This document shows positions 9,774 to 23,829 of a DNA stretch of 25,338 bases, piece after piece. Source of the DNA: a virus; the IMG/VR virus record IMGVR_UViG_3300032160_000050, positions 1 through 25,338 of that record. One strand, given 5' to 3'. Positions within the stretch are counted from its first letter, which is position 1. Each line of letters starts with the position of its first letter. Under the pieces are notes generated by a model. The model was not told the DNA's origin. It did no database searches and saw only the letters and a program-made list of their open reading frames with translations. A program made the position numbers and the translations under genes.

Positions 9774-10250
9774 ATGGCCGTCCAGAAGATTGACCACAAT
9801 TTCGGCGTCAACGGGCACGCCACCGCGATCAAGGATTTCAAGCGGGCGCACGAAGAGAACACCGCGGGGCTGCTGAATGCCTTCGAAGGCAAGGAGGTAG
9901 ATGCTCCGCGCCCAGTCCACGATCCCACGCACCCGGACAACCAGTGGCCGCGGATGGCGCATCACCCGGCCAAGGGTGAAATGCCCGTCGGGACGAACCT
10001 TAAAGGCGTGGACGATCCATCCAAGCGCAAGGCGATCCAGGCGGCCAATGAAAAAGTCTGGAAAGACGCGATGGCGAGCGGCTACCGCGCTGAGCCGTAT
10101 CTCCGGCCCCAGGTTGCGCTCCACGATCCGGCCACCGAGAAGAAAATCACTGCGGACGAGTTGGCCCGGCTCCGTGGCGAAAACGCCATTCTGTCCGAGC
10201 GCCTCAACCAGCTTCTGGAACGCTTCGACGCCCAAGGGAAGACCAGTTAG
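9774..10250 (+). CDS. Unknown head-module protein with C-terminal coiled coil
   Basis: 158 aa, polar, with no signal peptide. The N-terminus is charged, and the centre is His/Pro-rich (VHDPTHPDNQWPRMAHHPAK). Residues ~122-152 form a clear coiled coil (KKITADELARLRGENAILSE, then RLNQLLERFDAQ) with Leu at heptad spacing, so it is probably oligomeric. AAGGAGCGAT precedes the ATG. It sits between the coat-linked gene and the gp4 pair, a place where accessory head or assembly proteins occur in podophages. No family recognised. Confidence 0.6.
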   Translation: MAVQKIDHNFGVNGHATAIKDFKRAHEENTAGLLNAFEGKEVDAPRPVHDPTHPDNQWPRMAHHPAKGEMPVGTNLKGVDDPSKRKAIQAANEKVWKDAMASGYRAEPYLRPQVALHDPATEKKITADELARLRGENAILSERLNQLLERFDAQGKTS

Positions 10251-10265
10251 CGCCGGGAGGGCGAC

Positions 10266-11063
10266 GTGCCGAATCCCGTGGCCGTCACCGGCCAGTACAT
10301 CATCAACAACGCTTTCACCGCCCTGGGAATCCTCGAACAAGGCGGCGCTCCTTCAGTTTCCGATTCGGTTGACGCCCTGGCGGAACTCAATGACATGTGG
10401 GGTGCCTGGGGAATCGACGAAGGGTTGATCTTTTCCTCGGTCGCGGCGCAGTTCGCATGGCCGGCGGCGACCCCCAGCGTGGGAATGGGCGTGACAGCGC
10501 CTCCCCCCTTCAATCAGATCGGCGTCCCAGCGCGCATCTACGATGCCCATATGATCCTCGGAGGAATCCGCAAGCAATTGAAAATAGTCGATTTGGAAAC
10601 CTATACCGCCCATGGGGACTTGACCGCCACGGGCCTCATTGCCGACGAATTGCACCCGGACTGGTTCGTCAACGTTGGCAATGTGGCGGGCGTCTCGGGC
10701 TGCATCACGCTGTACGTATTCCCAGTCCCTTCAGGCGCGATCATCCTGGAACTCTCGGTTGGCATTCAGGCTTTTAGCCTGTGGACCCTCGCTGGGGCAA
10801 ACGTTTACGTTCCACAGGGTTATGTCGATGCACTGAAGTACACCCTCGCCTACCGGCTCCTACCGCGTTTCGGCGTGGCGGTCCAACCGCAGGTGGCCGA
10901 GACGGTTACACAGTTGGCTGAAAAGGCTGAAGCGCGCATCCGCGAAATGAACGCGATCAACCGGCAACTGAAAGGGCAGCAAGGCGCGCTCCCCGGATCG
11001 CCCGGCACACCGGCCGCGCCGCAGATGGCTCCCCAACCGGCTGGCGCTGGCGCGGTAAGGTAG
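10266..11063 (+). CDS. Head-completion / tail accessory protein, P22 gp4-like (copy A)
   Basis: 265 aa. gp4-type proteins bind the portal after packaging and begin tail assembly. The N-terminal signature is AFTALGILEQGGAPSVSDSV, continuing DALAELNDMWGAWG: the helix, (E)xxPS, D-A-L-x-x-L-N-D-M-x-x-x-W pattern of this family. Then come beta strands ITLYVFPVPSGAIILEL and the helical YVPQGYVDALKYTLAYRLLP segment, and the C-terminal AEKAEARIREMNAIN helix. A Pro/Gln/Ala-rich tail follows. P22 gp4 is shorter (166 aa). The start is GTG with GGGAGGGCGAC upstream. The following gene is a recognisable paralogue. Confidence 0.8.
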   Translation: MPNPVAVTGQYIINNAFTALGILEQGGAPSVSDSVDALAELNDMWGAWGIDEGLIFSSVAAQFAWPAATPSVGMGVTAPPPFNQIGVPARIYDAHMILGGIRKQLKIVDLETYTAHGDLTATGLIADELHPDWFVNVGNVAGVSGCITLYVFPVPSGAIILELSVGIQAFSLWTLAGANVYVPQGYVDALKYTLAYRLLPRFGVAVQPQVAETVTQLAEKAEARIREMNAINRQLKGQQGALPGSPGTPAAPQMAPQPAGAGAVR

Positions 11064-11067
11064 AGAC

Positions 11068-11853
11068 ATGCCATGGGTTCAAGGCGACGGCAGCGCACAG
11101 GACTTCATCTACCGCTCTTTCCGCAAAATCGGCCAGATCCGGCCCGGCTATACGCCATCGCCCGAGATTCTGCAGGACGCTCTCACTGAGTGGGGCGATT
11201 TTTTCGATGCCCTCGGCGCTGAGCAGAACGCACCCTATTCGAATCCCGTCTACCAGCACGCGGTGAGCGGTCCCGGCTCGCAGACCAACGGCAACGGCTA
11301 TCAGGTGGGACCCACGGCGGCTGACTGGGTGCAGCCGCGGCCCGAGGAGATCATCCGCGCGAACCTGGTCTTCACCAGCCAGGGACCGCAACCGGTTTAC
11401 ATCCAGTTGCGCCCGGTCAGCCAGGCGGAATGGGCCGCGCTCGCCATCCAACAGATTCCCGCGGTCAATGTAACCTCGATTTTCTGGTACGATCCGCAGT
11501 TCCCGAACGGCGTTTTCAACGTCTTCCCACCGCTGAACAGCAACGCTATCCAACTCTATCAACGCGGCATCCTAGCGTCCCCGGCCACGCTCGCGACGGT
11601 CTACACCGCGCCGCCGGGCTACAACGATATGGTGACCTACGGGCTGGCCGAGCGCCTATATTATCTGGCCACCAAAGAGGTGTGCATCCATCCGCGGCCC
11701 TACCAGAACATCGCGGCGCGGGCCGCCAATGCGCTGAACTACATCAAGCGCATGAACCGGCCGATCCCGCGGCTGGCGAACGATTTCCAGAGCGGGAAAA
11801 AGCCGGATGGCTTCTACGACAGCCAGGTCTATCAGACTGGGATTCCCTACTGA
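11068..11853 (+). CDS. Head-completion / tail accessory protein, P22 gp4-like (copy B)
   Basis: 261 aa. It has the same architecture as the preceding gene: N-terminal DFIYRSFRKIGQIRPGYTPS followed by EILQDALTEWGDFFDALG; central strand pair FWYDPQFPNGVFNVFPPLNS and AIQLYQRG; then APPGYNDMVTYGLAERLYYL and the helix IAARAANALNYIKRMNRP. The two proteins align segment by segment though identity is low, so this is an old tandem duplication. It may act as a second adaptor ring or as a different tail-tube component. There is no clear ribosome-binding site; a TAAGGT lies six bases before the ATG. Confidence 0.75.
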   Translation: MPWVQGDGSAQDFIYRSFRKIGQIRPGYTPSPEILQDALTEWGDFFDALGAEQNAPYSNPVYQHAVSGPGSQTNGNGYQVGPTAADWVQPRPEEIIRANLVFTSQGPQPVYIQLRPVSQAEWAALAIQQIPAVNVTSIFWYDPQFPNGVFNVFPPLNSNAIQLYQRGILASPATLATVYTAPPGYNDMVTYGLAERLYYLATKEVCIHPRPYQNIAARAANALNYIKRMNRPIPRLANDFQSGKKPDGFYDSQVYQTGIPY

Positions 11854-11854
11854 G

Positions 11855-14533
11855 ATGAAACAACTCCTGGCAATCTTGCTTTTCACTGCCGCCGCACAGG
11901 CTCAGAACGCCTTCCCCGCCCCACAACCGCAGTTGCAGTTCACTACGGCGGGGGGACCCCTGGCAGGTGGAAAGCTCTGCACCTACGTGAGCAACACCAC
12001 GACGCCGCTCGCGACCTACACCGATGGCACAGCGAGCGTGGCTAACTCCAACCCGGTGGTGCTCGATACCAACGGCAGCGCCAGCGTGTGGCTCACGCCC
12101 GCGGGCCTGTACACCTTCGTGCTGCGCTCCGGCGGCGATGGGAGCTGCACCACCGGAACGGTCCTATGGACGCAAAACGGAGTGGGAATCACTGCGGCTG
12201 GCCTGGTCAACGCCCTCGCCATCCCCCAACTCGGAACCGGCGCCAAGACTACGGGAGGCTATATCGATGTTCCGCCCATCACCGGCCCGCAAGTCGGTTG
12301 CACGGATGCCTTCGGCAACCCCGTGGAGATTCCCGTGCGGCTTGGCGGATTGCCGGCCATTGGGAAGAACGACGTGGTCATGTGGAATTCTCCATCGCCG
12401 CTTCCGGGAGTGAATCCTGGGGGATGCGCGATCAGCCTCTACAGCCAGAATGTCTATGGCCTGAACATCAACACGTACGTCCTGGCGCAGGGCGGTTTTG
12501 CCACTTTCCTTGGAAAGTTCGATGAGTACCAGGCTTCCTACGACCCGGCCACCATGCACGTGGGCGGCTATGTGGGCGGCAGCTTCACCGCGGGTACCCT
12601 CTATCCCATCGGCACGATTACCAGTACTGGAACTCTCACCGCTCCGGCCTACCTTGGCGGCTACATGCTGATCGGGCACTCCGCCGGGCCGCCGGTCGCC
12701 GGCACCATCGCCAGCGTGACAAATCCCCTGTCCTACGGTGAGGGCTTGCTTCAGGGCATGATCTATTTCGATGACACGTTGAAGTGCGGCCAACTCTATA
12801 ACGGGACCGGCTGGAACGGCTTTGGGTGCGGAGGCAGCGGAGGAATGCCGGGCGGCGGGACGGCCTCGATTCAAATCAATAATGGGGCCGGAGGATTTGG
12901 CGGAGACGCTAATTTCACCTACGTCGCTGGCACGGCGGTAACCCTCGGCGGCGGGGCGTCCTTCTTCGTGTCCGATCCCGCCGCTGGTTTCGATGCCAGC
13001 GCCTGCACGGCGACAAATTGCATTCAGGCACCCTTGGGGGGCATCCTCGGTCTGACGCTGCGCACCACCGATTCAGTGATTTGGGTTGAGGAAGCCGCTC
13101 CATCGCTCAGCTCCGCCGGCCAAGCGCGCATCTACGACGACTCAACCGCCCACGCGCTCATGGTCTCGCTGAACGGCGGGGCGTACTCGACTTTCGGCAC
13201 GGGCACTGTCACCCACACCGCCGGCGCGCTCACCCAGTACGCGGTCATGCTCGGGGCCGGCGCGGCGGATTCGACAGTGGTGTCTGGCTTGGGCACCGCA
13301 GGCTACGTGCTGACTTCAAACGGCGTGGCAGCGGCTCCGACCTGGCAGAATGTTACCGGCACTGGCACCGTGACGCACACGGGCGGCGCGCTCACGGCGA
13401 GTCTGCCCATCATCGGCAACGGTGGCGGCGACGTGAAGCCTGGCACCGTCAGCGGCAACACCACCGAATTCGGCACAGTGAGCGGTTCCCTGGTATCCGG
13501 AGATTGCCTGAAGGCCGACGCCAGCGGCAACATCGTGGACCAGGGATCTCCGTGCGGCTCGGCCAGCGCGGGTGTGTCCTCCATCGCGAGCGGTGGCAGC
13601 GGCCTCTACACCGGCGCGATCACTCTGACCGGCACGGCCAACCAGGTGATCATCACCCCCACCAGCGGGCCGAACACGTTCACCTTCAGCCTGCCGCAGA
13701 GCATCGCCACGGGAAGCGCTGTGACCTTTGGGTCGGTTACAATTGGCGGCGCGTTCACTACGAGTCAGACGGGCAGCAGTTACGCTTTCGTCAACAGCGA
13801 TGGATCTTTTAGCGTGACGGGAACCGGCGTCGTGACGGCTTCCGGAAGCGCGACTTTCGCCAATGTGACGGCGGGCAGCAACTCGGGCGCTGGCGTGATT
13901 CAGCCGTGGTGCGCGAACACTACAGCGGCCTGCTTTCAACTGGTCCAAACGGGCAGCGGCGGATCGATCACGCCGATTCAGATGGACGGGCAAGGCGACC
14001 TCAGCATATCCGGTCAATTCGTCATCAACTATGGCGGAGGTAGCTATAGGGTTCAAAGTACTGGACTTGCGACGAGTTGGTACAGCGGATCGACGGCTGA
14101 ATTTACAGTCAATTCCTTGAATGGCCTGATCACCGACTATGCCGGTCATACCGTAGGCACCAATAGCCAGGGCGTCTCCTGGATTCCGGCGACTTACCAG
14201 GCTACGGGCCAGACCGGCTCCATTTCAGCGCAGAGTCTCCAAGTGGGCGGCGGTATCGCCCCGGCTGGCCAGTACCGGATAAGCGCCACTGGAGGCGTCA
14301 CGACGGCCGGAACCGGCGGAACGCTCTTCGCTTATGTCTCCTACACAGGTGCGGGAGGAACGAGCAATCAGCCCCAAATCTGTCAATTTCTGGCGACGGC
14401 GGGCGGTACCTGTTCCGGGTCCGTGACGATCTACACGACCGGAGCGGCGAACATTCAGTTTTCCACCACGGCGTCCGGCTTCACGGGTAGCCCTCAGTAT
14501 TCGATCTACGTGACGCTGGAGCGGCTTCAGTAG
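11855..14533 (+). CDS. Tailspike/tail-fibre-like protein with signal peptide
   Basis: 892 aa from ATG 11855; an in-frame ATG at 11807 lies inside the previous gene and would bury the signal. Residues 1-17 (MKQLLAILLFTAAAQAQ) are a classic Sec signal. Residues ~20-115 match the head-binding type domain of phage tailspikes: PLAGGKLCTYVSNTTTPLAT, YTDGTASVANSNPVVLDTNG, SASVWLTPAGLYTFVLRSGG, then VLWTQNGVGI. After a middle domain comes a Gly/Ser/Thr-rich shaft with repeats (GTGTVTHTAGALT and GTGTVTHTGGALT; TSNGVAAAPTWQN). The C-terminus is a beta domain (AGQYRISATGGVTTAG ... QYSIYVTLERL). No depolymerase motif is recognised. It probably recognises the host surface. A Sec signal ahead of a capsid-attachment domain is unexpected. 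Confidence 0.75.
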   Translation: MKQLLAILLFTAAAQAQNAFPAPQPQLQFTTAGGPLAGGKLCTYVSNTTTPLATYTDGTASVANSNPVVLDTNGSASVWLTPAGLYTFVLRSGGDGSCTTGTVLWTQNGVGITAAGLVNALAIPQLGTGAKTTGGYIDVPPITGPQVGCTDAFGNPVEIPVRLGGLPAIGKNDVVMWNSPSPLPGVNPGGCAISLYSQNVYGLNINTYVLAQGGFATFLGKFDEYQASYDPATMHVGGYVGGSFTAGTLYPIGTITSTGTLTAPAYLGGYMLIGHSAGPPVAGTIASVTNPLSYGEGLLQGMIYFDDTLKCGQLYNGTGWNGFGCGGSGGMPGGGTASIQINNGAGGFGGDANFTYVAGTAVTLGGGASFFVSDPAAGFDASACTATNCIQAPLGGILGLTLRTTDSVIWVEEAAPSLSSAGQARIYDDSTAHALMVSLNGGAYSTFGTGTVTHTAGALTQYAVMLGAGAADSTVVSGLGTAGYVLTSNGVAAAPTWQNVTGTGTVTHTGGALTASLPIIGNGGGDVKPGTVSGNTTEFGTVSGSLVSGDCLKADASGNIVDQGSPCGSASAGVSSIASGGSGLYTGAITLTGTANQVIITPTSGPNTFTFSLPQSIATGSAVTFGSVTIGGAFTTSQTGSSYAFVNSDGSFSVTGTGVVTASGSATFANVTAGSNSGAGVIQPWCANTTAACFQLVQTGSGGSITPIQMDGQGDLSISGQFVINYGGGSYRVQSTGLATSWYSGSTAEFTVNSLNGLITDYAGHTVGTNSQGVSWIPATYQATGQTGSISAQSLQVGGGIAPAGQYRISATGGVTTAGTGGTLFAYVSYTGAGGTSNQPQICQFLATAGGTCSGSVTIYTTGAANIQFSTTASGFTGSPQYSIYVTLERLQ

Positions 14534-14809
14534 GGTAGAATTGCAAGTTTGGGGTTGCCCTTGGGTGTCCTCCGGGGGCACGGCTGAATCCTGCAAGGAG
14601 GCGTTACGCTTCGAAAGCAGCCGTCAGTTGTTGGGAATGCACATGGGTAACCCAGTCGCGAATGCGATGCGCGGGCCCTCCTGGAGCGAATCTCCAGGGT
14701 AAAGAGACTGAGGCCCCGCCGAAATGGCTTCCAACCGACCGGCGGGGCCAGAACTCATGGGCAGGTTCCAGCTTTAGAGTATACCCCATCGGGGCAGGCT
14801 CGCAACAAG

Positions 14810-14835
14810 AAGCCCAGGGGCTTACTCTGTTTTTT
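14810..14835 (+). terminator. Weak Rho-independent terminator candidate
   Basis: Stem AAGCC/GGCTT with loop CAGG (14810-14823), then ACTCTG and six T (14830-14835). The stem is short and the T run starts six bases after it, so efficiency is doubtful. It would end transcripts from the tailspike region just before the gene at 14852. Confidence 0.35.
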
Positions 14836-14839
14836 CGGT

Positions 14840-14845
14840 TACAAT
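14840..14845 (+). promoter_or_regulatory. Candidate -10 box (TACAAT) for a leaderless transcript
   Basis: TACAAT ends six bases before the ATG at 14852, and no ribosome-binding site is present. A transcript starting about 7 bases after the box would begin at the ATG. No -35 is recognisable. Confidence 0.35.
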
Positions 14846-14851
14846 GGGCGC

Positions 14852-15199
14852 ATGAGAAAGTACCTCCTGGCGGTGCTGCTTTTCCCTCTGATGCGCTGCT
14901 CCACCTCGCCCGACGTGCAGGCCGTGCGTCAGAACGCCTCCTACCGCCGCGGCCTCTCCGACCTGAACGCGAAGATCCGCGAGGAAAGTGCGGCCCGCGA
15001 CGCCCTGGTGAAGGAATGGGCGCGCGTCTGCACCGGCAAGGGTGCGGCGCTCGGGATCGACGATTTCAAGGAGGTAAGCTGCATCCCCGATCCAAAGGCG
15101 CAACAGGCCGCAGGCACCGGCCAATCTGCTGAGCAAAAGGCCATGCCGATGCGCGGCACCGTCAAGGTCGATCCTCCCGTGAAGCCCGCGGCGCAATGA
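14852..15199 (+). CDS. Exported or membrane-anchored coiled-coil protein, unknown
   Basis: 115 aa. The N-terminus MRKYLLAVLLFPLMRC is a signal or anchor. It resembles a lipoprotein signal, but Arg precedes the Cys, so lipidation is doubtful. Residues ~25-60 are a charged helix (ASYRRGLSDLNAKIREESAA, then RDALVKEWARVC) likely to form a coiled coil. The tail is Pro/Gln/Ala-rich. A one-helix anchor plus periplasmic coiled coil is the layout of an inner spanin, but it is 8 kb from the endolysin and next to tail genes, so that reading is weak. Its stop overlaps the gp10-like start as ATGA, indicating co-translation. Confidence 0.55.
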   Translation: MRKYLLAVLLFPLMRCSTSPDVQAVRQNASYRRGLSDLNAKIREESAARDALVKEWARVCTGKGAALGIDDFKEVSCIPDPKAQQAAGTGQSAEQKAMPMRGTVKVDPPVKPAAQ

Positions 15200-16764
15200 G
15201 CCAACCCTTCGCCGGATTTATCGGCCCCAGCTACCAGTTGTCAAATCGCTGGGCCGCCATCGAGCGCTGCGCGAACTGGTTTTTGGTGCCCGTGGAATCG
15301 TCCGACGAAACCAAAAGCCGCGTCGTCTTCGATCCCTTCCCGGGGAATCGGCAGTTCTCAGCGCTCCCTCTGGCCCCGCCTTTCAACCAGCCGTGCCGCG
15401 GGCTATTGGAGAACCGCGGGGCGGTCTACGGCGTGAACGGCACGTGCGTCTACATCCTCTTGCCCTCGGGCGCCATGCAGCAACTCGGCAACATCGTTAG
15501 CGACGGCAAGCCCGTCAGCATGACGGCCAATGGAAACGGCCAGATCGGAATCAGCAGCGCTGGCCGCTTCTGGGTCTTCGAGCCTGCCGGGTGGGCGGCG
15601 GAAGTCCCGGTGGGAGATAAGTTCCTGGGCAGTGGCGTCATCACATTCCAAGACGGGTACGTGATCGCTGTCACCCCGAATTCCAACCAATTCCAAATCA
15701 GCGGCACTGACGACATCCCTATTGGCGACATGCGCGTCTGGGACGCGGCCAACGTGAGCATCCAGGCCGGCCAAGCCGACAATCTCCGCGCGGTGCTTTC
15801 CTCGAGGGAATACCTCCGTCTGTTTGGCCATCGGCGCTCGCAGGTCTACCAGAACGTGGGCAGCGCCGGAATCGGCGGTTTCCCCTTCCAGTCGTACAAC
15901 GAGACCTTCATCGAGACTGGCTTGGCCGCTCCCTTCGGTCTTTGCGACCTGGGCCAGTCCGTCGTGTGGATCGGTGAAGACGCGCGGGGCCAGCGCGCGG
16001 CGTGGCGGGACATCGCTTTCCAACCCCAGCGGATTTCGACATTCGCGGTAGAGTTGGCCTGGGGCGGCTATCCGACCGTGGAGGACGCAACCTGTTTCCC
16101 GTTCATTTGGCAAGGCCACCTGATGGTGCGCTTCGACTTCCCGAGCGCGCAGCCGGTCTTCGATGGCGCGGCGCAGAACGGCGCGAGTTGGGTCTACGAC
16201 GATACCGCCAGCGCGCTACTCCAGCGGCCCATCTGGACGGAGGTGAACTTCACCGCGGCTAACGGCATTCAGTCGCGGCGGCCCGAGCAGTTCCACTGCT
16301 TCGCTTTTGGCAAACATCTGGTGGGAAGCAACGGCCTCGACGGCAATCCGGGAGCGGTCTACCAGTGGCAGCCGGGCCAGTATTCCGACTGCGCGGTCGC
16401 GCTCGATGGCACCCAAACGCAGGTGGAAATCGTCTGGGACCGTATCTGCCCGCACCAGTGGAGCGGCAACAAACGCGTGGTCTACAATCGCATCGAGTTC
16501 GAATTGGCCCGCGGCGTGGGACTCGACGGGGATCCGCCGGTAGGCGCCAATCCCCAAGTTCTGTTGCGCTGGTCGGACGATGGCGGATCGACTTGGAAGC
16601 CGTTTGTAAACATCCCCATTGGGAGACTGGGCCAGTACCTGGTGCGGGTTTACCGGAACCGCGTAGGGTACGCGCGGGATCGCGTGTTCTGGCTGCGGTG
16701 CTCAGATCCGGTATTCAATTCACTGGTGGGCGCAACGCTCGATTCCTTCGTCTGCGGCTCTTGA
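15196..16764 (+). CDS. Tail hub / packaged-DNA stabilisation protein, P22 gp10-like
   Basis: 522 aa; P22 gp10 has 472. In P22, gp10 hexamers bind below gp4 and close the portal channel. The N-terminus FAGFIGPSYQLSNRWAAIER, continuing CANWFLVPVES, is the family signature (G-x-GPSYQ ... ERC-NW). The following beta-propeller-like strands are typical: GLLENRGAVYGVNGTCVYIL, then FQDGYVIAVTPNSNQFQISG, REYLRLFGHRRSQVYQNVGS and SVVWIGEDARGQRAAWRD. The C-terminal domain has LLRWSDDGGSTWKPFVNIPI and YRNRVGYARDRVFWLRCSDP, a motif shared by many podophage tail hubs. No signal peptide. The start overlaps the previous gene (ATGA). Family call confident. Confidence 0.87.
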   Translation: MSQPFAGFIGPSYQLSNRWAAIERCANWFLVPVESSDETKSRVVFDPFPGNRQFSALPLAPPFNQPCRGLLENRGAVYGVNGTCVYILLPSGAMQQLGNIVSDGKPVSMTANGNGQIGISSAGRFWVFEPAGWAAEVPVGDKFLGSGVITFQDGYVIAVTPNSNQFQISGTDDIPIGDMRVWDAANVSIQAGQADNLRAVLSSREYLRLFGHRRSQVYQNVGSAGIGGFPFQSYNETFIETGLAAPFGLCDLGQSVVWIGEDARGQRAAWRDIAFQPQRISTFAVELAWGGYPTVEDATCFPFIWQGHLMVRFDFPSAQPVFDGAAQNGASWVYDDTASALLQRPIWTEVNFTAANGIQSRRPEQFHCFAFGKHLVGSNGLDGNPGAVYQWQPGQYSDCAVALDGTQTQVEIVWDRICPHQWSGNKRVVYNRIEFELARGVGLDGDPPVGANPQVLLRWSDDGGSTWKPFVNIPIGRLGQYLVRVYRNRVGYARDRVFWLRCSDPVFNSLVGATLDSFVCGS

Positions 16765-16777
16765 CATTCTCGCCGGA

Positions 16778-17620
16778 ATGGGCGATGCTGCAGACGTGGC
16801 TTATCCCGGCGGGAAAAACGGCGCTGGCGTTTACCAGCGGCTCATCAACCTGATGCCTCCGCACCGGGTTTACATCGAACCTTTCCTGGGCGGCGGTGCG
16901 ATCATGCGGCTCAAGCGTGCGGCGCCCCTGAGCATCGGCCTCGACCTCGATCTCGAAGCGCTGGCTATGGCGATGCCGCCGGAGGGATCGTCGCGGATCG
17001 CGATGCGCGATCGCGCACCATCGGATTCGGTGATAGCGGCCGAAATCGCCCGCATCGGCGATGGCGGATCCGCCACCATCCGCATCGACGATGGCGGATC
17101 CTCCATCTTTATCCACGGCGATGGGATCCGGTTCCTGGAAGCTTATCCTTTTCGCGGGAACGAACTGGTTTACTGCGATCCGCCCTACATGATGGAGACG
17201 CGCTCCGGGCGGCGACTCTACGCGCACGAGCTTTCCGAGGGGGGCCATCGCCGTTTCCTGCGAGTGGTGATGGGGATCGCTGAGCGCACCAAAATCATGA
17301 TTTCCGGATATTATTCGGCGCTGTATGGGAAAATGCTCGAAGCTCCCATCTGGCAGACCGTCAGTTTCGAGGCCATGACGCGCGGCGGTCGCACCGCTAC
17401 CGAGTGGCTTTGGTTCAACTTCGATCCACCCAAGGAGCTTCACGATTACCGCTACCTCGGCCAGAACTTCCGCGAGCGCGAACGCATCAAGCGGAAAAAG
17501 GCGCGCTGGACTGCCCGGCTGGCGCGGATGGAACCGCTGGAGCGTGCAGCACTGATGCTGGCGATGCAGCACTCCAACGCCGATTCTGACGCTAATAGCA
17601 GCTTTACAATTAAGCCATGA
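16778..17620 (+). CDS. dam: DNA adenine methylase, Dam/D12 class
   Basis: 280 aa, the length of E. coli Dam. It transfers a methyl group from S-adenosylmethionine to N6 of adenine. Motif order is that of alpha-group enzymes: YPGGK at residues 9-13, FLGGGAI at 36-42 (SAM binding), a variable target-recognition region, and the catalytic DPPY at 134-137. Later come MISGYYSALYGKML and ATEWLWFNF. The variable region contains a 10-residue tandem repeat (IGDGGSATIR at 93-102, IDDGGSSIFI at 103-112). The gene has 11 GATC sites, six of them within 16986-17128. It may protect phage DNA from host restriction or alter expression. GATC specificity is likely but unproven. Confidence 0.88.
   Translation: MGDAADVAYPGGKNGAGVYQRLINLMPPHRVYIEPFLGGGAIMRLKRAAPLSIGLDLDLEALAMAMPPEGSSRIAMRDRAPSDSVIAAEIARIGDGGSATIRIDDGGSSIFIHGDGIRFLEAYPFRGNELVYCDPPYMMETRSGRRLYAHELSEGGHRRFLRVVMGIAERTKIMISGYYSALYGKMLEAPIWQTVSFEAMTRGGRTATEWLWFNFDPPKELHDYRYLGQNFRERERIKRKKARWTARLARMEPLERAALMLAMQHSNADSDANSSFTIKP
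17054..17113 (+). repeat. 30-bp tandem repeat in the methylase gene
   Basis: Two adjacent 30-bp units (17054-17083, 17084-17113), both starting ATCG(G/A)CGATGGCGGATCC. They encode related decapeptides in the expected target-recognition region. Each unit carries a GGATCC. Confidence 0.75.
17605..17610 (+). promoter_or_regulatory. Candidate -10 box (TACAAT) for a leaderless transcript
   Basis: TACAAT, then exactly six bases, then the ATG at 17617, as at 14840. No ribosome-binding site precedes this ATG. No clear -35. Confidence 0.35.
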
Positions 17621-18237: not shown

Positions 18238-18621
18238 GTGGCCGTCTACAACCTATCGCCGATCTTTGAGCCGGGATACGTGCCCAACGCGGCAGCGGCA
18301 CTGGCCTTCGCCACTCCCGGTAACCCTACCTCAGTTCCGGCCAACTACCAGTACCAGATCCAAGTCCTCCGCGTGACGAACATTACCGGCGCGCCCGTCA
18401 CGATTGAAATCTGGCGCGTGCCAAGCGGGGGCGCGCGCGGCAACTCCAATATCGTGGTGCCCGCAGTAGCCGTGCCGGTGGCCAGCCAGACGTTCATGGC
18501 GCTAGACCTGACGGCTTTATGGGGTGCCGTGCTCCAAACCGGTGATGCGATCCACGCGGTAGCGGGCAACGCCAACGCTCTGGTGATCCAGGGCGATGGC
18601 ATCGTGGCGCAGGTGCCATAA
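18238..18621 (+). CDS. Small beta-sandwich structural protein
   Basis: 127 aa. GTG start with no ribosome-binding site, but a TAACCT six bases before it. The sequence is almost all beta (YQIQVLRVTNITGAPVTIEI, then GNSNIVVPAVAVPVASQTFM, then GDAIHAVAGNANALVIQGDG). This strand pattern is common in phage accessory proteins that bind tails or capsids. The stop overlaps the next start as TAATG. Role inferred from position only. Confidence 0.6.
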   Translation: MAVYNLSPIFEPGYVPNAAAALAFATPGNPTSVPANYQYQIQVLRVTNITGAPVTIEIWRVPSGGARGNSNIVVPAVAVPVASQTFMALDLTALWGAVLQTGDAIHAVAGNANALVIQGDGIVAQVP

Positions 18622-19010
18622 TGGCGAAATTCCGGATTGTCGTCGCCGAAGGAGAGGCTTCCGAAGAATCGTTGCGCGCGATTCTTGCCAGCCTCCAAAT
18701 CGTTCAATCTCCTGAATCGGCTCCAACGCCGATCCCGGCGCCCGCATCAGCGACGACCGCCAAGAGGATTGCCGCGCCGGCCAAGATCGCGGAGAGTCCC
18801 TACGAAGTGCGGCCCGGAAGCTTGGGAGAAGCCGCGCTGGTGGCTCTGAAAGCAGGCCCGCTATCATCCATCGATGTTTTTGAGAGGCTACAGAAACAGA
18901 ATCCCAAAACTTCGGCTGGCAGCGTATACGGCGTATTGAGATTCCTGACTGAAAAGGGAAAACTCCGCAAGCTCGTTGACGAACATGGCACGCGCTGGGC
19001 GCTTCAATGA
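18621..19010 (+). CDS. Winged-helix DNA-binding protein, putative
   Basis: 129 aa. The N-terminal ~30 residues are helical (EASEESLRAILASLQIVQ), followed by a Pro/Ala linker. The C-terminal ~65 residues look like a winged helix: SLGEAALVALKAGPLSSIDV, then FERLQKQNPKTSAGSVYGVL, then the wing RFLTEKGKLRKLVDEHGTRW. The SAGSVYGVLRFL part would be the recognition helix. It might control late genes or bind packaged DNA. It is coupled to the genes on both sides (TAATG before, ATGA after). The fold is predicted by eye, not by homology to a named family. Confidence 0.6.
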   Translation: MAKFRIVVAEGEASEESLRAILASLQIVQSPESAPTPIPAPASATTAKRIAAPAKIAESPYEVRPGSLGEAALVALKAGPLSSIDVFERLQKQNPKTSAGSVYGVLRFLTEKGKLRKLVDEHGTRWALQ

Positions 19011-19225
19011 CGACCTACGACCGCCTGAAGCGCGCCGCCGAGCGCGCGGGGACGAGCGTAGACGCGCCAGACGCGCCCTTCGAAGGCGATTCTCTGGATT
19101 TCCTGCTGCTGATCCAGAAGGTGGAAGAAGAGTTCGGCATCGAGCTTTCGGTCTGGGCGCTGGGAAAGCGCCGGGTGAATACTCCGCGCGAGTTGGTAGC
19201 TTATGTGGATGAGTGCGGCCTGTGA
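19007..19225 (+). CDS. Acyl-carrier-protein-like protein
   Basis: 72 aa, matching the ACP length of 75-80. The sequence EGDSLDFLLLIQKVEEEFGI has the ACP helix-II signature: D28-S29-L30-D31 with Ser29 as the phosphopantetheine attachment site, followed by a hydrophobic helix and EEFGIEL. The end NTPRELVAYVDE matches the ACP helix IV (T-x-x-DLVxYV). One departure is the basic GKRRVN loop. If modified by a host phosphopantetheinyl transferase it would carry an acyl chain. It is translationally coupled to a GNAT-fold gene (overlap at 19222), suggesting the two work together. The ACP call rests on a short motif but the fit is good. Confidence 0.7.
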   Translation: MTTYDRLKRAAERAGTSVDAPDAPFEGDSLDFLLLIQKVEEEFGIELSVWALGKRRVNTPRELVAYVDECGL

Positions 19226-19695
19226 TTACCTTTCAGCTTGAAGCGTGGCCTGACGTGGCCGAAGAGATCAAGGCGCTGGCACTCCTCCAGTACGAAGAGA
19301 TTGCCCTGGACCGGGAGGCCATACCCTACGATCCGGACTGGAACTATTACAGCCAGGCGCACGCCATCGGGCGTCTCAAGGTCGTGACGGTGCGCCACAG
19401 CATCACTTACCCGGTGGGCCGGTTGGTGGGCTGGTACGGCGCTCTCGTGATGCCTCACCCGCACTACCGCTCCACGCTATTCGCTTTCCAGGACCTCTTC
19501 TATCTCTTGCCGGAGTACCGGCGCGGCACTACGGCGGCGCGGCTCTTCGTAGAAGCTGAGCAGATGCTGCGCGCGGCGGGCGTCAAATGCGCCATCTCGA
19601 TCAGCAAGGATCACATGCCCGGCGCGGCGGCGCTCCTGGACCGGCTCGGTTGGCGGCGCGTGGGCGTGATGCACACCAAGTTGCTGCTACCATAG
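19222..19695 (+). CDS. GNAT-family acyl/acetyltransferase
   Basis: About 157 aa from the GTG at 19222, which overlaps the ACP stop as GTGA; the GTG at 19213 (+3 residues) is an alternative. The C-terminal half shows the GNAT fold: strand beta-4 FAFQDLFYLLPEYR, the acyl-CoA loop and helix RRGTTAARLFVEAEQMLRAA, strand VKCAISIS, and the last strand pair ALLDRLGWRRVGVMHTKLLL. The acyl-CoA loop is degenerate compared with RxxGxG/A but resembles phage-borne GNATs. The N-terminal part holds EEIALDREAIPYDPDWNYY, possibly shaping the substrate site. The substrate is unknown. Some GNAT-fold enzymes use acyl-ACP (LuxI-type, HlyC, FeeM), which the neighbouring ACP makes plausible. Confidence 0.8.
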   Translation: MITFQLEAWPDVAEEIKALALLQYEEIALDREAIPYDPDWNYYSQAHAIGRLKVVTVRHSITYPVGRLVGWYGALVMPHPHYRSTLFAFQDLFYLLPEYRRGTTAARLFVEAEQMLRAAGVKCAISISKDHMPGAAALLDRLGWRRVGVMHTKLLLP

Positions 19696-19702
19696 AGTTT
19701 CG

Positions 19703-20635
19703 ATGGCGTCCATTTCACTGCCGATTGCGCTTTTAGCTGGTGGCGCTCTCTCGGCTGCTGGTGGCGTGACGAGCGCGGCCCTGGGATCGAATGCCGCTCA
19801 GACTGCCGCTGGTGAGCAGGTCGCCGAGCAGGAAAAGGCCCTCCAGTTCCAGGAGCAGGTCTGGTCCCAGCAGCAGGCGAATCAGGCTCCTTTCATCGGC
19901 GCGGGGCAGCAATCCATCGCGTCCTTGATGGCGGCGCTGGGCAATGGCACCTTCGGACCCGGTTCCCTCGGACCCGTCCCGACCGCTCCGGGAGCCTTTG
20001 TCCCACCCACTCTCGAACAGGCCCAGGCGACGCCCGGCTATGAGTTCACCCAGCAGCAGGGCGAGAAGGGCATTCTGGAGGGTAGCGCGGCGGCCGGCGG
20101 AGCCATCAGCGGCGGCACGCTTAAGAGCCTGGACACGTTCAACACGAACCTGGCCAACAACACCTACGGCCAGATCTACAATCAGGCACTCCAGGGCTAT
20201 TCCGCCAATCTCGCACAGTACGGCTCGCAGTTGGCAGGCTATCAGACCGCGCAGGGCGCGCAGCAGCAGGCGTTCCAGCAACTCGCCACCCCGGCCGCTA
20301 TCGGCGAAGGAGCCACAGTCAATCTGAGCAATGCCGGTAGCTCGGCCAGCTCGACAATCGCGCAACTGATGCAGGCCATTGGGGCATCGCAGGCCGCGGG
20401 AACGGTGGGGTCCACCAACGCGATTACCGGCGGGATCGGCAACGCCACGGGGCAGATCGGCCAGGACCTCTTGCTCAGTCAGATTTTGCCGCTCCTGACA
20501 GGAACCGGCGCCGGTGGCGTCCAAGGGGTACCAGCCGGAGTGCAGCCCGCGGGTATCCCGGCCGGACAGATTCCCATGCCCCTGCCACCCACGCTTCCGC
20601 CCGCGCCCGCCTATCCTGGCGGCGGTGCCGGATGA
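19703..20635 (+). CDS. DNA ejection (transfer) protein, P22 gp7-like
   Basis: 310 aa. The N-terminus is a hydrophobic Ala/Gly helix (LPIALLAGGALSAAGGVTSA), followed by a Gln-rich helix (AAGEQVAEQEKALQFQEQVW). Then comes the phage motif ATPGYEFTQQQGEKGILEGS, continuing AAAGGAISGGTLKSLDTF, and NTYGQIYNQALQGYSANLAQ. This is the layout of podophage proteins often labelled DNA transfer protein, which leave the head with the DNA and help form a trans-envelope channel. The tail is Pro/Gly-rich. Its stop overlaps the next start (ATGA). No ribosome-binding site is evident; TACCAT lies 8 bases before the ATG. Confidence 0.75.
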   Translation: MASISLPIALLAGGALSAAGGVTSAALGSNAAQTAAGEQVAEQEKALQFQEQVWSQQQANQAPFIGAGQQSIASLMAALGNGTFGPGSLGPVPTAPGAFVPPTLEQAQATPGYEFTQQQGEKGILEGSAAAGGAISGGTLKSLDTFNTNLANNTYGQIYNQALQGYSANLAQYGSQLAGYQTAQGAQQQAFQQLATPAAIGEGATVNLSNAGSSASSTIAQLMQAIGASQAAGTVGSTNAITGGIGNATGQIGQDLLLSQILPLLTGTGAGGVQGVPAGVQPAGIPAGQIPMPLPPTLPPAPAYPGGGAG

Positions 20636-22152
20636 GCGCGGCTGCAATCCCGCTGGCCGTCAACCCGCCACAGCCCGGCCCGTCGCCCGTCGCCACCATC
20701 GGGCAGCTTATGCAGTACCGCGGCCTTGCCTCGGAAATCGCGCTGCGCCAGCAGCAGGCGCAACAGATGGCCGCCCAGACTGCCGACGTGCAGGCGCAAG
20801 CACAACAGCGCCAGCAGCAGATTCGCGACCAGACCACCGTCATGCAGGTGATGGCCGACCCGGCTGCGAACGCGCGGATTCATCTGGGAAATTACAGCGA
20901 TCTGGAAGGCAAAGTTACACAGCCGACCCTGGACGCGCTGGAGCAACATCGATCCACGCTCGCCAATAACCTTCTGGCGCAGACCAAAGAGCAGAACGCC
21001 ATCCAAGTGGATGCGAAAAAGCAGATTACGGACGCACTGACCGGAAAACTCTTCACCCACACGGACAGCGATGGAAAAGTGGACCTGGACGCCATCAACC
21101 AGGGGATGCCGAGTTCGATAGCGGCCCTCGCAACGCCATTGAAGAACGCCGGCCTGACCGGAGCGGTGCCACAGTCTTTCAGCAGCGCTGAGCAGATCAA
21201 GGGCATTATCGCCAACCTGGGCGGCGGCATCGCCCTGCAGAACGATGTGCTGGCAAAGCAGAAGGCTCAGGCGGAAACCGCTGCCAGCACTGCGACGGCG
21301 GCGAAGACGCAAGCGGAGATACCGGGCGCGAAAATCGCGAGCGAGCGCGCTCAGATGGAACTGGAACTCTTCAAGCAGTTGCGGGCGAATCCCACGGCTG
21401 GCGACAACGTGATAGACCGAGCCATCCAAGATCCTACGATCCGCGAGACAACAAAAGTCATGGCCCATGCGGCCACCAGCTATGCAGACTGGGAAGCGGC
21501 CATCAATAAGGGCTTGGCCGATGAGCGCTCGCAGCAGTCCCAGGTGGCGGTGAAGAAGTCCGAAGCGGGGACGCTGGAGGCTATCGCGGCGGCCAATGCG
21601 ACCGCAACTGCCAACGCTCAGCATCGAGCGAGCGCTATCGACGCTCTCAGTAAGTCGGAATCGAGCGTGGGCGCGGTTCAGGCGAATGTGGATCGTCTGA
21701 AATACCTGCTTGGGCAGGCTCAGCAGAACAACAACTCCACGGCAGCGCTTGCCGTTAAGCAGTCGATGGGCGTATTCAACCTCGCGCTCCAGGGAACCCA
21801 TCGTGCCTCCAACGCCGTCATGGACCAATCTCCGGGAAGCGCTTGGGACAAACTCCAGGGTCTTGTTGGCGGAATCGTGGAAGGGCAGCCGATTCCCAAG
21901 AGGGTTTTCGACGAAGCTCCCGGCGTCCTGGATTCCGCTGTCCGCGAAGCTCAGCAAGCACATAATGCAATGGCAGACACCAACAACCGGGAATGGAGTC
22001 TGAACTTCCCCAAATTCCCGGTTGGCGGCGCGGCCCCCGCGGGGCAACCCGCTGCCCGCACCGCGCAAGGCGGCTACCAGATCGGCCACAAGTATGGGGG
22101 ACTGACCTACTTGGGTGGGGACCCAAAGGACCGGGCCAACAGTTGGCGGTAA
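20632..22152 (+). CDS. Internal virion / ejection protein (second of three)
   Basis: 506 aa, Ala/Gln-rich and mostly helical: LRQQQAQQMAAQTADVQAQA, KQKAQAETAASTATAAKTQA, AIAAANATATANAQHRASAI. Long coiled coils and the place between two other ejection-type proteins fit a gp20- or gp16-like role. The C-terminal motif GGYQIGHKYGGLTYLGGDPK, followed by DRANSW, is one I associate with podophage internal proteins. No enzymatic domain such as a transglycosylase is visible. The start overlaps the previous stop (ATGA). The next gene starts immediately after this stop (TAAATG). Confidence 0.7.
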   Translation: MSAAAIPLAVNPPQPGPSPVATIGQLMQYRGLASEIALRQQQAQQMAAQTADVQAQAQQRQQQIRDQTTVMQVMADPAANARIHLGNYSDLEGKVTQPTLDALEQHRSTLANNLLAQTKEQNAIQVDAKKQITDALTGKLFTHTDSDGKVDLDAINQGMPSSIAALATPLKNAGLTGAVPQSFSSAEQIKGIIANLGGGIALQNDVLAKQKAQAETAASTATAAKTQAEIPGAKIASERAQMELELFKQLRANPTAGDNVIDRAIQDPTIRETTKVMAHAATSYADWEAAINKGLADERSQQSQVAVKKSEAGTLEAIAAANATATANAQHRASAIDALSKSESSVGAVQANVDRLKYLLGQAQQNNNSTAALAVKQSMGVFNLALQGTHRASNAVMDQSPGSAWDKLQGLVGGIVEGQPIPKRVFDEAPGVLDSAVREAQQAHNAMADTNNREWSLNFPKFPVGGAAPAGQPAARTAQGGYQIGHKYGGLTYLGGDPKDRANSWR

Positions 22153-23829
22153 ATGCCGGCATTCGTTCCACCCCCGCTTTCTTCTCACGAAGGGCTTGCC
22201 AGCGACTGGACACCACCGCCGCTTTCGGCGCATGAGGACCCTCCGGAGCCCAAAGGTTTTTGGGCCACGCTCGGAAGCGACATCGCCAATGCTCCCAAAC
22301 ATGTGATGGATTTCCTCTCTGGCCATCCGCTCGGGGATACGCTCCAATTCATCAAGGACACTGGCGCGCAGCGGGAGGCGCACACCGCCGCGGCAACAGC
22401 CGCCTATAAGGCGGGCGACTACAAGACCGCCGCAGAGCAAGCGCTATTCTCCATTCCCTTCCTCGGGACGGGAATGGCCAGCACGATTCCCGAATGGGAG
22501 AGCGGCCAGAAAGGCGCAGCGGGGGCCCATCTCTTCGAGCAAGCCGCGGGGATTCTGGGACCGTCTGCCGTTCGCGCCGTTACGCCGGTAGTGCGAGCAA
22601 CGGGTGCAGGGATGGCCGCGGCGGCTCCCGGCATAGTCGGGGGTGCCACGAAGATCGCAGCGGGTGAAGCCCTCGGAGCGGTGGCTCCCGGAATGGAGTG
22701 GCCCGGCCGCTTGGCTCTCGGCTATCCGGGCGCTCGGCAGGTTGCAGGTGGCTTCCAAGCAGGTGCACAGGCATTTCGCGCCGCACTGGCAGGCGGCGCT
22801 TCGCCCGAAGCGGCCATGTCGCAACTCATGGAGGACCTGTCTCAATCACTGGGCGGAAAGTCCTTCGCGAATCTATCGGAGTCGCAGCAAGTTGGCATCC
22901 GCGCAGTGGCCAACCGCATTACGAATGGGCTGCCACTGGAAACAGCGACGCCTAAACCGGGCGTCGTGAATCCGGGTACCCCAATAGGCGGAAAGACTGC
23001 CGCGCAAATGCTGCAAGAAGAGTTGGCCGCGGCAAAAGCGCCTCCAGCGGCGGTCCAGCGCGGAGCGCCCTTGTGGAGTGGGGTACCCGCGACCGCGCCC
23101 GCGCCCACACCCGAATTTGCGTCTGTTCCTTCGACTTTGCCATCTGGACGCATCCCCGGCACAGGTACTCCCCCTGCGGCGCCCGCCGTCACAGTTACGC
23201 CTCAGCGTGCCCCGATTTGGGCCGGAATGCCAGCCGCGGAATCGGCTCCCCTTCCCGGCGTTTCACCAATTCCTTCGCCACTACCATCGGGGCGGATACC
23301 CGGCACAGGCGTAGCGGCGGGCCCTGCGCCAGTTGTCCCCCCAGTCGGCGTGAACGTTCCTCTCCGCCCTCCCCTTCGTCCGGCAACCGCCCCTGCCCCA
23401 ACTCCGCTCCCTACTCCCACCAGCGCCCCCGCTGTAGCGCCTGCCCCAGCGGCTGCCGGACCTCCGTCCATCGCTCAAATGCTGGCCGAGGAAATGGCCA
23501 AATCGGGGACGATCCCCGCAGGCGCCCGCGTGACGATCCCCGCCCCGGAGCCTGCGATACCGCCCGAAACGTACGCCGGAGCTGCGCGCGCTGCCCGCGC
23601 CGATAAGGCAGCCTCCCTAGCCGGTGCCCTGCACTCGGCCGACATCCCGGCGTCCGACCTCGGCGCGATGAGCAAAGCCGAGTGGAAAACGGTGGCAGAG
23701 GGGCAGAAGATCGAATGGCCCACAGGCAAAGCGGCCCAGGAGAAGCTCATCCGCGATGCCACCAACGCCAAGTTGGGGCTGGAGGCCGGGCAACCGGCGA
23801 CCGTAAGCAAAATGATGGAGGCGAAGTAA
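22153..23829 (+). CDS. Large Ala/Pro-rich internal virion protein (third of three)
   Basis: 558 aa. The N-terminus repeats PPPLSSHE and PPPLSAHE. Residues ~70-230 are helical and partly hydrophobic (AEQALFSIPFLGTGMASTIP; GAGMAAAAPGIVGGATKIAA; ARQVAGGFQAGAQAFRAALA), resembling membrane-inserting ejection proteins. From ~270 to 440 the sequence is a Pro/Ala linker with diverged repeats: RGAPLWSGVPA and RAPIWAGMPA; PSTLPSGRIPGTG and PSPLPSGRIPGTG; TAAQMLQEELAAAK and SIAQMLAEEMAKSG. The C-terminus is charged and helical. Position after two ejection-type genes suggests the gp16-like partner; homology is not visible. No transglycosylase or peptidase motif was found. Confidence 0.65.
   Translation: MPAFVPPPLSSHEGLASDWTPPPLSAHEDPPEPKGFWATLGSDIANAPKHVMDFLSGHPLGDTLQFIKDTGAQREAHTAAATAAYKAGDYKTAAEQALFSIPFLGTGMASTIPEWESGQKGAAGAHLFEQAAGILGPSAVRAVTPVVRATGAGMAAAAPGIVGGATKIAAGEALGAVAPGMEWPGRLALGYPGARQVAGGFQAGAQAFRAALAGGASPEAAMSQLMEDLSQSLGGKSFANLSESQQVGIRAVANRITNGLPLETATPKPGVVNPGTPIGGKTAAQMLQEELAAAKAPPAAVQRGAPLWSGVPATAPAPTPEFASVPSTLPSGRIPGTGTPPAAPAVTVTPQRAPIWAGMPAAESAPLPGVSPIPSPLPSGRIPGTGVAAGPAPVVPPVGVNVPLRPPLRPATAPAPTPLPTPTSAPAVAPAPAAAGPPSIAQMLAEEMAKSGTIPAGARVTIPAPEPAIPPETYAGAARAARADKAASLAGALHSADIPASDLGAMSKAEWKTVAEGQKIEWPTGKAAQEKLIRDATNAKLGLEAGQPATVSKMMEAK
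23059..23340 (+). repeat. Diverged tandem repeat coding for Pro-rich linker
   Basis: Two units of about 141 bases, with the shared core coding SGRIPGTG at about 23145 and 23286. DNA identity is patchy, so this is an old duplication within the 558-aa gene. Confidence 0.6.

Follow-up and report, generated by a model that had tools for sequence, protein, structure and literature searches.

A gene for an acyl carrier protein (ACP) followed by a gene for a GNAT-fold enzyme recurs in short-tailed phages from environmental samples, just before the DNA ejection genes, and this suggests that the phages chemically modify a protein or a small molecule while building their particles. The best reading is that the pair is an acylation module in the late operon of P22-like short-tailed phages. 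We consider it highly probable that ACP and GNAT work together as one functional unit, and give a probability of roughly 0.55 to an acyl transfer from the ACP through the GNAT, with the acceptor left open; the ejection protein as that acceptor is a tentative suggestion. In the open literature, a scope with most subscription journals outside it, the pair is unreported and phage ACPs appear solely as auxiliary genes.

The ACP and GNAT genes in the window

The window, that is the whole viral record of 25.3 kb analysed here, has a gene content that places the phage among the P22-like podophages. A P22-type major head protein and the Hc3 head closure protein are followed later by a P22 gp7-type DNA ejection protein, and besides the ACP, the GNAT and the winged-helix-like protein the interval from Hc3 to the ejection gene encodes a DNA methyltransferase and two proteins of no clear family. 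The pair is flanked by the P22-type Hc3/tail block on one side and the gp7-type ejection gene on the other:

15196-16764, plus strand: Hc3 head closure protein of the P22 gp10 type, the anchor for the genomic context (phrog_578 Hc3, E 5e-55)
16778-17620: D12-type DNA adenine methyltransferase
18621-19010, plus strand: winged-helix-like protein, 129 aa, its end overlapping the ACP gene by ATGA (sub-threshold FUR match, E 0.0017)
19007-19225, plus strand: predicted acyl carrier protein, 72 aa, phosphopantetheine site D28-S29-L30-D31 (PF00550, model, motif)
19222-19695, plus strand: predicted GNAT-fold N-acyltransferase, 157 aa from the GTG at 19222 (phrog_1249, model, Foldseek)
19703-20635, plus strand: DNA ejection (internal virion) protein of the P22 gp7 type, 310 aa, directly 3' of the GNAT (phrog_598 'DNA ejection', E 2e-23)
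20632-22152, plus strand: second ejection-block protein, 506 aa (homologues in L028 and L017)

The ejection protein is 53% identical to its homologue in contig L028 and 49% to that in L017, and the protein behind it, without a PHROG match of its own, is 40% (L028) and 28% (L017) identical to homologues lying directly 3' of the ejection gene in both. In the window the block continues with a protein at 22153-23829. L017, a close relative whose Hc3 is 52% identical to that of the window, has no ACP and, at the corresponding place (L017:10473-10829), a GNAT that is different and shorter. Another contig, L016, is 99.8% identical to the window over 9994-17257, and a one-base difference in the methyltransferase gene shifts the L016 frame.

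An earlier, sequence-only reading had marked 18621-19695, which is the span of three genes joined by ATGA and then GTGA overlaps; the pair itself occupies 19007-19695. The position and ATGA overlap of the winged-helix gene that this reading placed just upstream were retained, but its FUR match stays below cut-off and the gene is absent beside the ACP in the relatives inspected (L028 and further ACP contigs); it is probably a local passenger. The proposed translational coupling of ACP and GNAT by GTGA was confirmed, the likely true GNAT start being the GTG at 19222, which lies in the 4-base overlap with the ACP stop; the mechanical ORF call opens the GNAT at 19213 and ends it at 19695.

Judged from sequence and predicted structure, the product of 19007-19225 is a genuine acyl carrier protein, as the ACP-like size and DSLD motif had indicated. 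It passes the PF00550 (PP-binding) cut-off with E 4.1e-6 and 27.4 bits against 20.8, and its AlphaFold model is a canonical four-helix bundle in which Ser29, by motif the modifiable residue of DSLD (residues 28-31), is the first residue of helix II (29-43). The top Foldseek matches to the model were mostly ACPs, with E-values that are modest (0.008 at best). PF00550 is matched by all 12 aligned homologues (E up to 0.01), and D-S-L are the sole invariant residues of the alignment (mean column identity 34%), kept in 12 of 12 even as identity of the relatives to the window ACP falls to 16-38%. Homologues lacking the Ser were sought among these and none was seen; six further ACPs from the ACP-seeded scan described below likewise read DSL. 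All the ACPs are acidic, with net charges of -5 to -12.

The window GNAT is assigned, on its profile match and predicted fold, to the GNAT superfamily and to phrog_1249 (acetyltransferase, E 2e-10); alone it is sub-threshold for PF00583, which 56 of the 74 family members do match. Structure prediction, called for by the sequence-only reading for both proteins, gave a very confident model here as well (pLDDT 95.2), and the nearest solved folds are the CoA-using AAC(3) and RimI (AAC(3)-Ia, E 7e-10). The residues E10, R61 and R103 are invariant, and the R-x-G-x-x-G/A loop is kept, in ACP-paired and unpaired GNATs alike. In this pyrophosphate-motif region R103 is invariant, G105 nearly so and position 108 G or A, giving the spacing R-x-G-x-x-G/A as against Q/R-x-x-G-x-G/A. 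ACP-paired GNATs have a mean net charge of +1.3 and the others about -0.3 to -0.6, a slight difference which was therefore not used as evidence.

The suggested likeness to LuxI, HlyC and FeeM did not hold as family membership: among the 74 members there was no match to the FeeM/acyl-ACP N-acyltransferase families (PF13444 and relatives), to the LuxI autoinducer synthases or to the Pfam family of the HlyC toxin-activating acyltransferase, and none of the three appears in the top 50 PDB folds. Nor did any of the 74 match DUF2833 or DUF2824, which we take to be the Pfam families of the T7 gp13 and P22 gp14 virion proteins; the position before the ejection genes is presumably the sole feature that the GNAT has in common with these. 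The defence-system families gave no match.

Recurrence of the pair before ejection genes

Single-protein searches with the window ACP or GNAT (viral_contigs, genome_contigs) returned no relatives, nor did a two-sequence ACP alignment (A3) used as query, and finding relatives required profile- and context-based scans. A strict regular expression for the ACP overlooked most homologues and was replaced by PF00550 together with a home-made HMM.

Among the records of 13 named phages with GNAT homologues, the slot is mostly comparable, after the tail genes and before internal virion genes, with L008 as an exception where the GNAT precedes the portal gene. Phage acetyltransferases of the same broad GNAT family as the window GNAT are SP6 gp28, BPP-1 bbp24 and the Vibrio Zobellviridae GNATs; the window GNAT and several relatives match phrog_1249, and the SP6, BPP-1 and Vibrio phage genes were found by similarity. 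Unlike the window, none of the 13 records holds an ACP, and the SP6 and BPP-1 genes lie before the portal gene. Among 100 further viral records (98 of them GNAT-bearing) only L028 had an ACP, which by itself would have pointed to a one-off; a survey seeded on the ejection protein altered this picture.

That survey found an ACP at 14 of 80 loci (13 recognised in the records with PF00550, the fourteenth, L120, being the L028 record), and the GNAT lies 3' of the ACP in all 14, immediately so except in L158 with its 174-base gap. An ACP-seeded scan, blind to the GNAT, had the GNAT next downstream at 12 of 17 loci, six of the contigs being new, and the ejection gene follows the pair wherever the contig is long enough. 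The remaining five ACPs stand in other gene contexts, without a GNAT and with no ejection gene nearby; every ACP found beside an ejection gene has the GNAT in between. The two scans together bear out the expectation that the pair stands side by side in other podophages, with 18 contigs carrying an ACP followed by a GNAT, a total that includes the window, leaves out copies of L124 and L172 and drops to 17 when L158 and L225, which are near-identical, are taken as one, and it should be noted that the counts are not independent trials, since the scans partly overlap and the contigs share ancestry.

The two genes overlap by 4-20 bases in nearly all pairs, and no ORF matched both the ACP and the GNAT profiles, which gives no sign of a natural fusion. 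In three pairs of relatives dN was lower than dS for ACP and GNAT alike, with some dS values near saturation and one ACP comparison resting on very few changes; at the level of these alignments this shows purifying selection on both genes.

Some unverified gut records named 'Bacteriophage sp.' (H63, H64, H70; MT835740.1, MT837406.1, MT835512.1 = L211, L212, L216) have ordinary bacterial-type ACPs and no GNAT, and the MT835740.1, MT837406.1 and MT835512.1 records are probably bacterial fragments.

The GNAT tree and the hydroxylase partner

On a tree of 98 GNATs (149 columns, quick method, L131 and L156 left out) the ACP label needs 2 changes, against 9.7 with shuffled labels. Eight ACP-paired GNATs form one branch with support 87. 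The window GNAT lies outside this main branch, its position having 81-90% SH-aLRT, and forms with L028 and L018 a separate small branch (support 81), in which L018, sister to the ACP-paired L028, is without ACP. The limited resolution of the tree is compatible with a single gain and loss of the ACP or with its repeated gain. At L131:2716-3382 and L156:2719-3391 the GNAT overlapped by an ACP belongs to a more distant branch, the L131 GNAT also matching phrog_1249; hence pairing with an ACP is found in two or more GNAT branches.

At many ACP-less GNAT loci the overlapping upstream gene encodes an Asp/Asn beta-hydroxylase (PF05118, E 1e-14 to 1e-17), which overlaps the GNAT start or lies just upstream at L139:2357-2938, at L002:3404-4000 (Pseudomonas phage PfAn1) and at about 35 further loci. 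Among the 98 GNATs, 10 have an ACP and 20 a hydroxylase nearby, and none has both. As preceding gene the hydroxylase characterises one large GNAT branch, and the ACP and hydroxylase labels are one change apart on the tree. The LpxO model matches the PF05118-type neighbour weakly, far below cut-off; PF05118 is a family which we take to include LpxO, acting on lipid acyl chains, and SyrP, acting on carrier-bound Asp. From this pattern it seems that the slot before the GNAT often holds a lineage-specific partner, and that the ACP-GNAT pair therefore is a variant of a more general cassette, whose GNAT core is unchanged with an ACP, with a hydroxylase and with no partner. The GNAT family is not ACP-specific, a caution against taking an ACP to be required by the GNAT in every case.

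A podophage-type GNAT is also present in the 39 kb genome of Limnohabitans phage DC33 (PQ492659.1, L215), which is filed under Inoviridae and is likely misclassified.

Proposed function and alternatives

In the late-operon acylation module as we read it, a host phosphopantetheinyl transferase would charge Ser29 of the ACP, and host fatty-acid or other thioester metabolism would load it. Neither a phage phosphopantetheinyl transferase (PPTase) nor an acyl-adenylating (AMP-binding) enzyme was found in 15 ACP records, several being fragments, hence the charging is probably from the host. The GNAT would move the ACP-bound acyl group onto an amine during virion assembly, a role suggested by gene position. 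The first candidate acceptor would be the ejection protein encoded immediately 3', by analogy with HlyC and CdiC, whose genes precede those of their substrates. In these systems the donor is acyl-ACP and the acyltransferase is encoded next to its substrate (PMC8510554), and the phage gene likewise lies directly 5' of its candidate substrate gene; unlike HlyC/CdiC, none of the 74 phage GNAT members matches their Pfam family.

A true ACP, its invariant Ser, the overlapping genes, a pair kept across highly diverged phages and the fixed slot before the ejection genes all speak for the module, while most GNATs being without ACP, the acetyl-CoA-using nearest folds and the invariant residues common to paired and unpaired members speak against acyl transfer. 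The latter points fit the chief rival, which we hold to be unlikely: the GNAT would be an ordinary acetyl-CoA N-acetyltransferase whose target is a protein of the virion or of the host, and the ACP would serve as a subunit for binding or regulation and donate no acyl group. The same GNAT core with ACP, hydroxylase or no partner agrees with this, as does phiKMV Rac, a GNAT encoded in the structural-gene region of that phage, for which acetylation of host targets is reported (PMC7552054). Compared by description, Rac differs from the window GNAT in that no ACP is mentioned and that it adjoins the RNA polymerase and the first structural gene. A purely structural partner would not need the phosphopantetheine Ser, which is strictly kept while the ACP diverges to 16-38%. 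GNAT homologues without the ACP neighbour and with ordinary acetyl-CoA sites had been named beforehand as evidence against the pair, and half of this was borne out: most homologues do lack the ACP, and the nearest fold is CoA-using.

The main alternative outcome, that the pair makes a soluble N-acyl amine (a signal, an aminolipid precursor or an antibiotic-like product) in the manner of FeeM or OlsB, we regard as improbable. It would suit the hydroxylases that occupy the place of the ACP in sister phages, given the presumed kinship with LpxO and SyrP. Acyl-ACP-dependent GNAT-type synthases exist (PMC11631085, PMC8762209); FeeM and OlsB are acyl-ACP-using N-acyltransferases making small molecules (PMC11631085), and ACP binding by FeeM is reported by Van Wagoner and Clardy 2006, as cited in PMC11631085 and PMC8762209. 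In the proposed role the phage GNAT would resemble FeeM as a GNAT-type enzyme taking its acyl group from an ACP, and by the sequence-only reading the FeeM cluster likewise has an ACP of its own, but the phage GNAT has no sequence or top-50 fold match to FeeM and is encoded in a phage late operon. Against a metabolite also stand the lack of any match to N-acyltransferase or autoinducer synthase Pfam families, a slot beside virion genes that would be unusual for one, and the negative outcome for the two kinds of biosynthetic enzyme sought, PPTase and AMP-binding. We find it very improbable that the two genes travel as passengers independently of each other, with the ACP raising host fatty-acid synthesis as an auxiliary gene and the GNAT serving separately in host takeover. 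Descriptions of ACPs in phages as auxiliary metabolic genes exist (PMC8224337, PMC11705849), with no GNAT partner reported in the accessible portions of these papers, and the five ACPs without GNAT in the blind scan point the same way; the GNAT as next gene downstream of every ACP in ejection-gene context, and the clustering of the ACP label on the GNAT tree, argue otherwise.

Further, within the acylation module, we speculate that in P22-like phages the ACP and GNAT might fatty-acylate an ejected internal virion protein, leading to its insertion into the host envelope during DNA delivery, and that sister phages swap the carrier for an Asp/Asn-type hydroxylase acting with the same GNAT; as a whole this is a doubtful proposal. 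If true, phages would possess, in the fatty-acylation of virion proteins, an equivalent of toxin-activating acylation. It is an open question how short-tailed phages get their ejection proteins into or across the host envelope, and the position of the pair offers a testable hypothesis, namely that virion proteins are modified with lipid or other acyl groups. From the exchange of ACP for hydroxylase in sister phages one may suspect that a single slot hosts a broader set of modification cassettes, of which we found no description. As this GNAT occurs very commonly among podophages and lacks an assigned function, a solution would annotate a large gene family.
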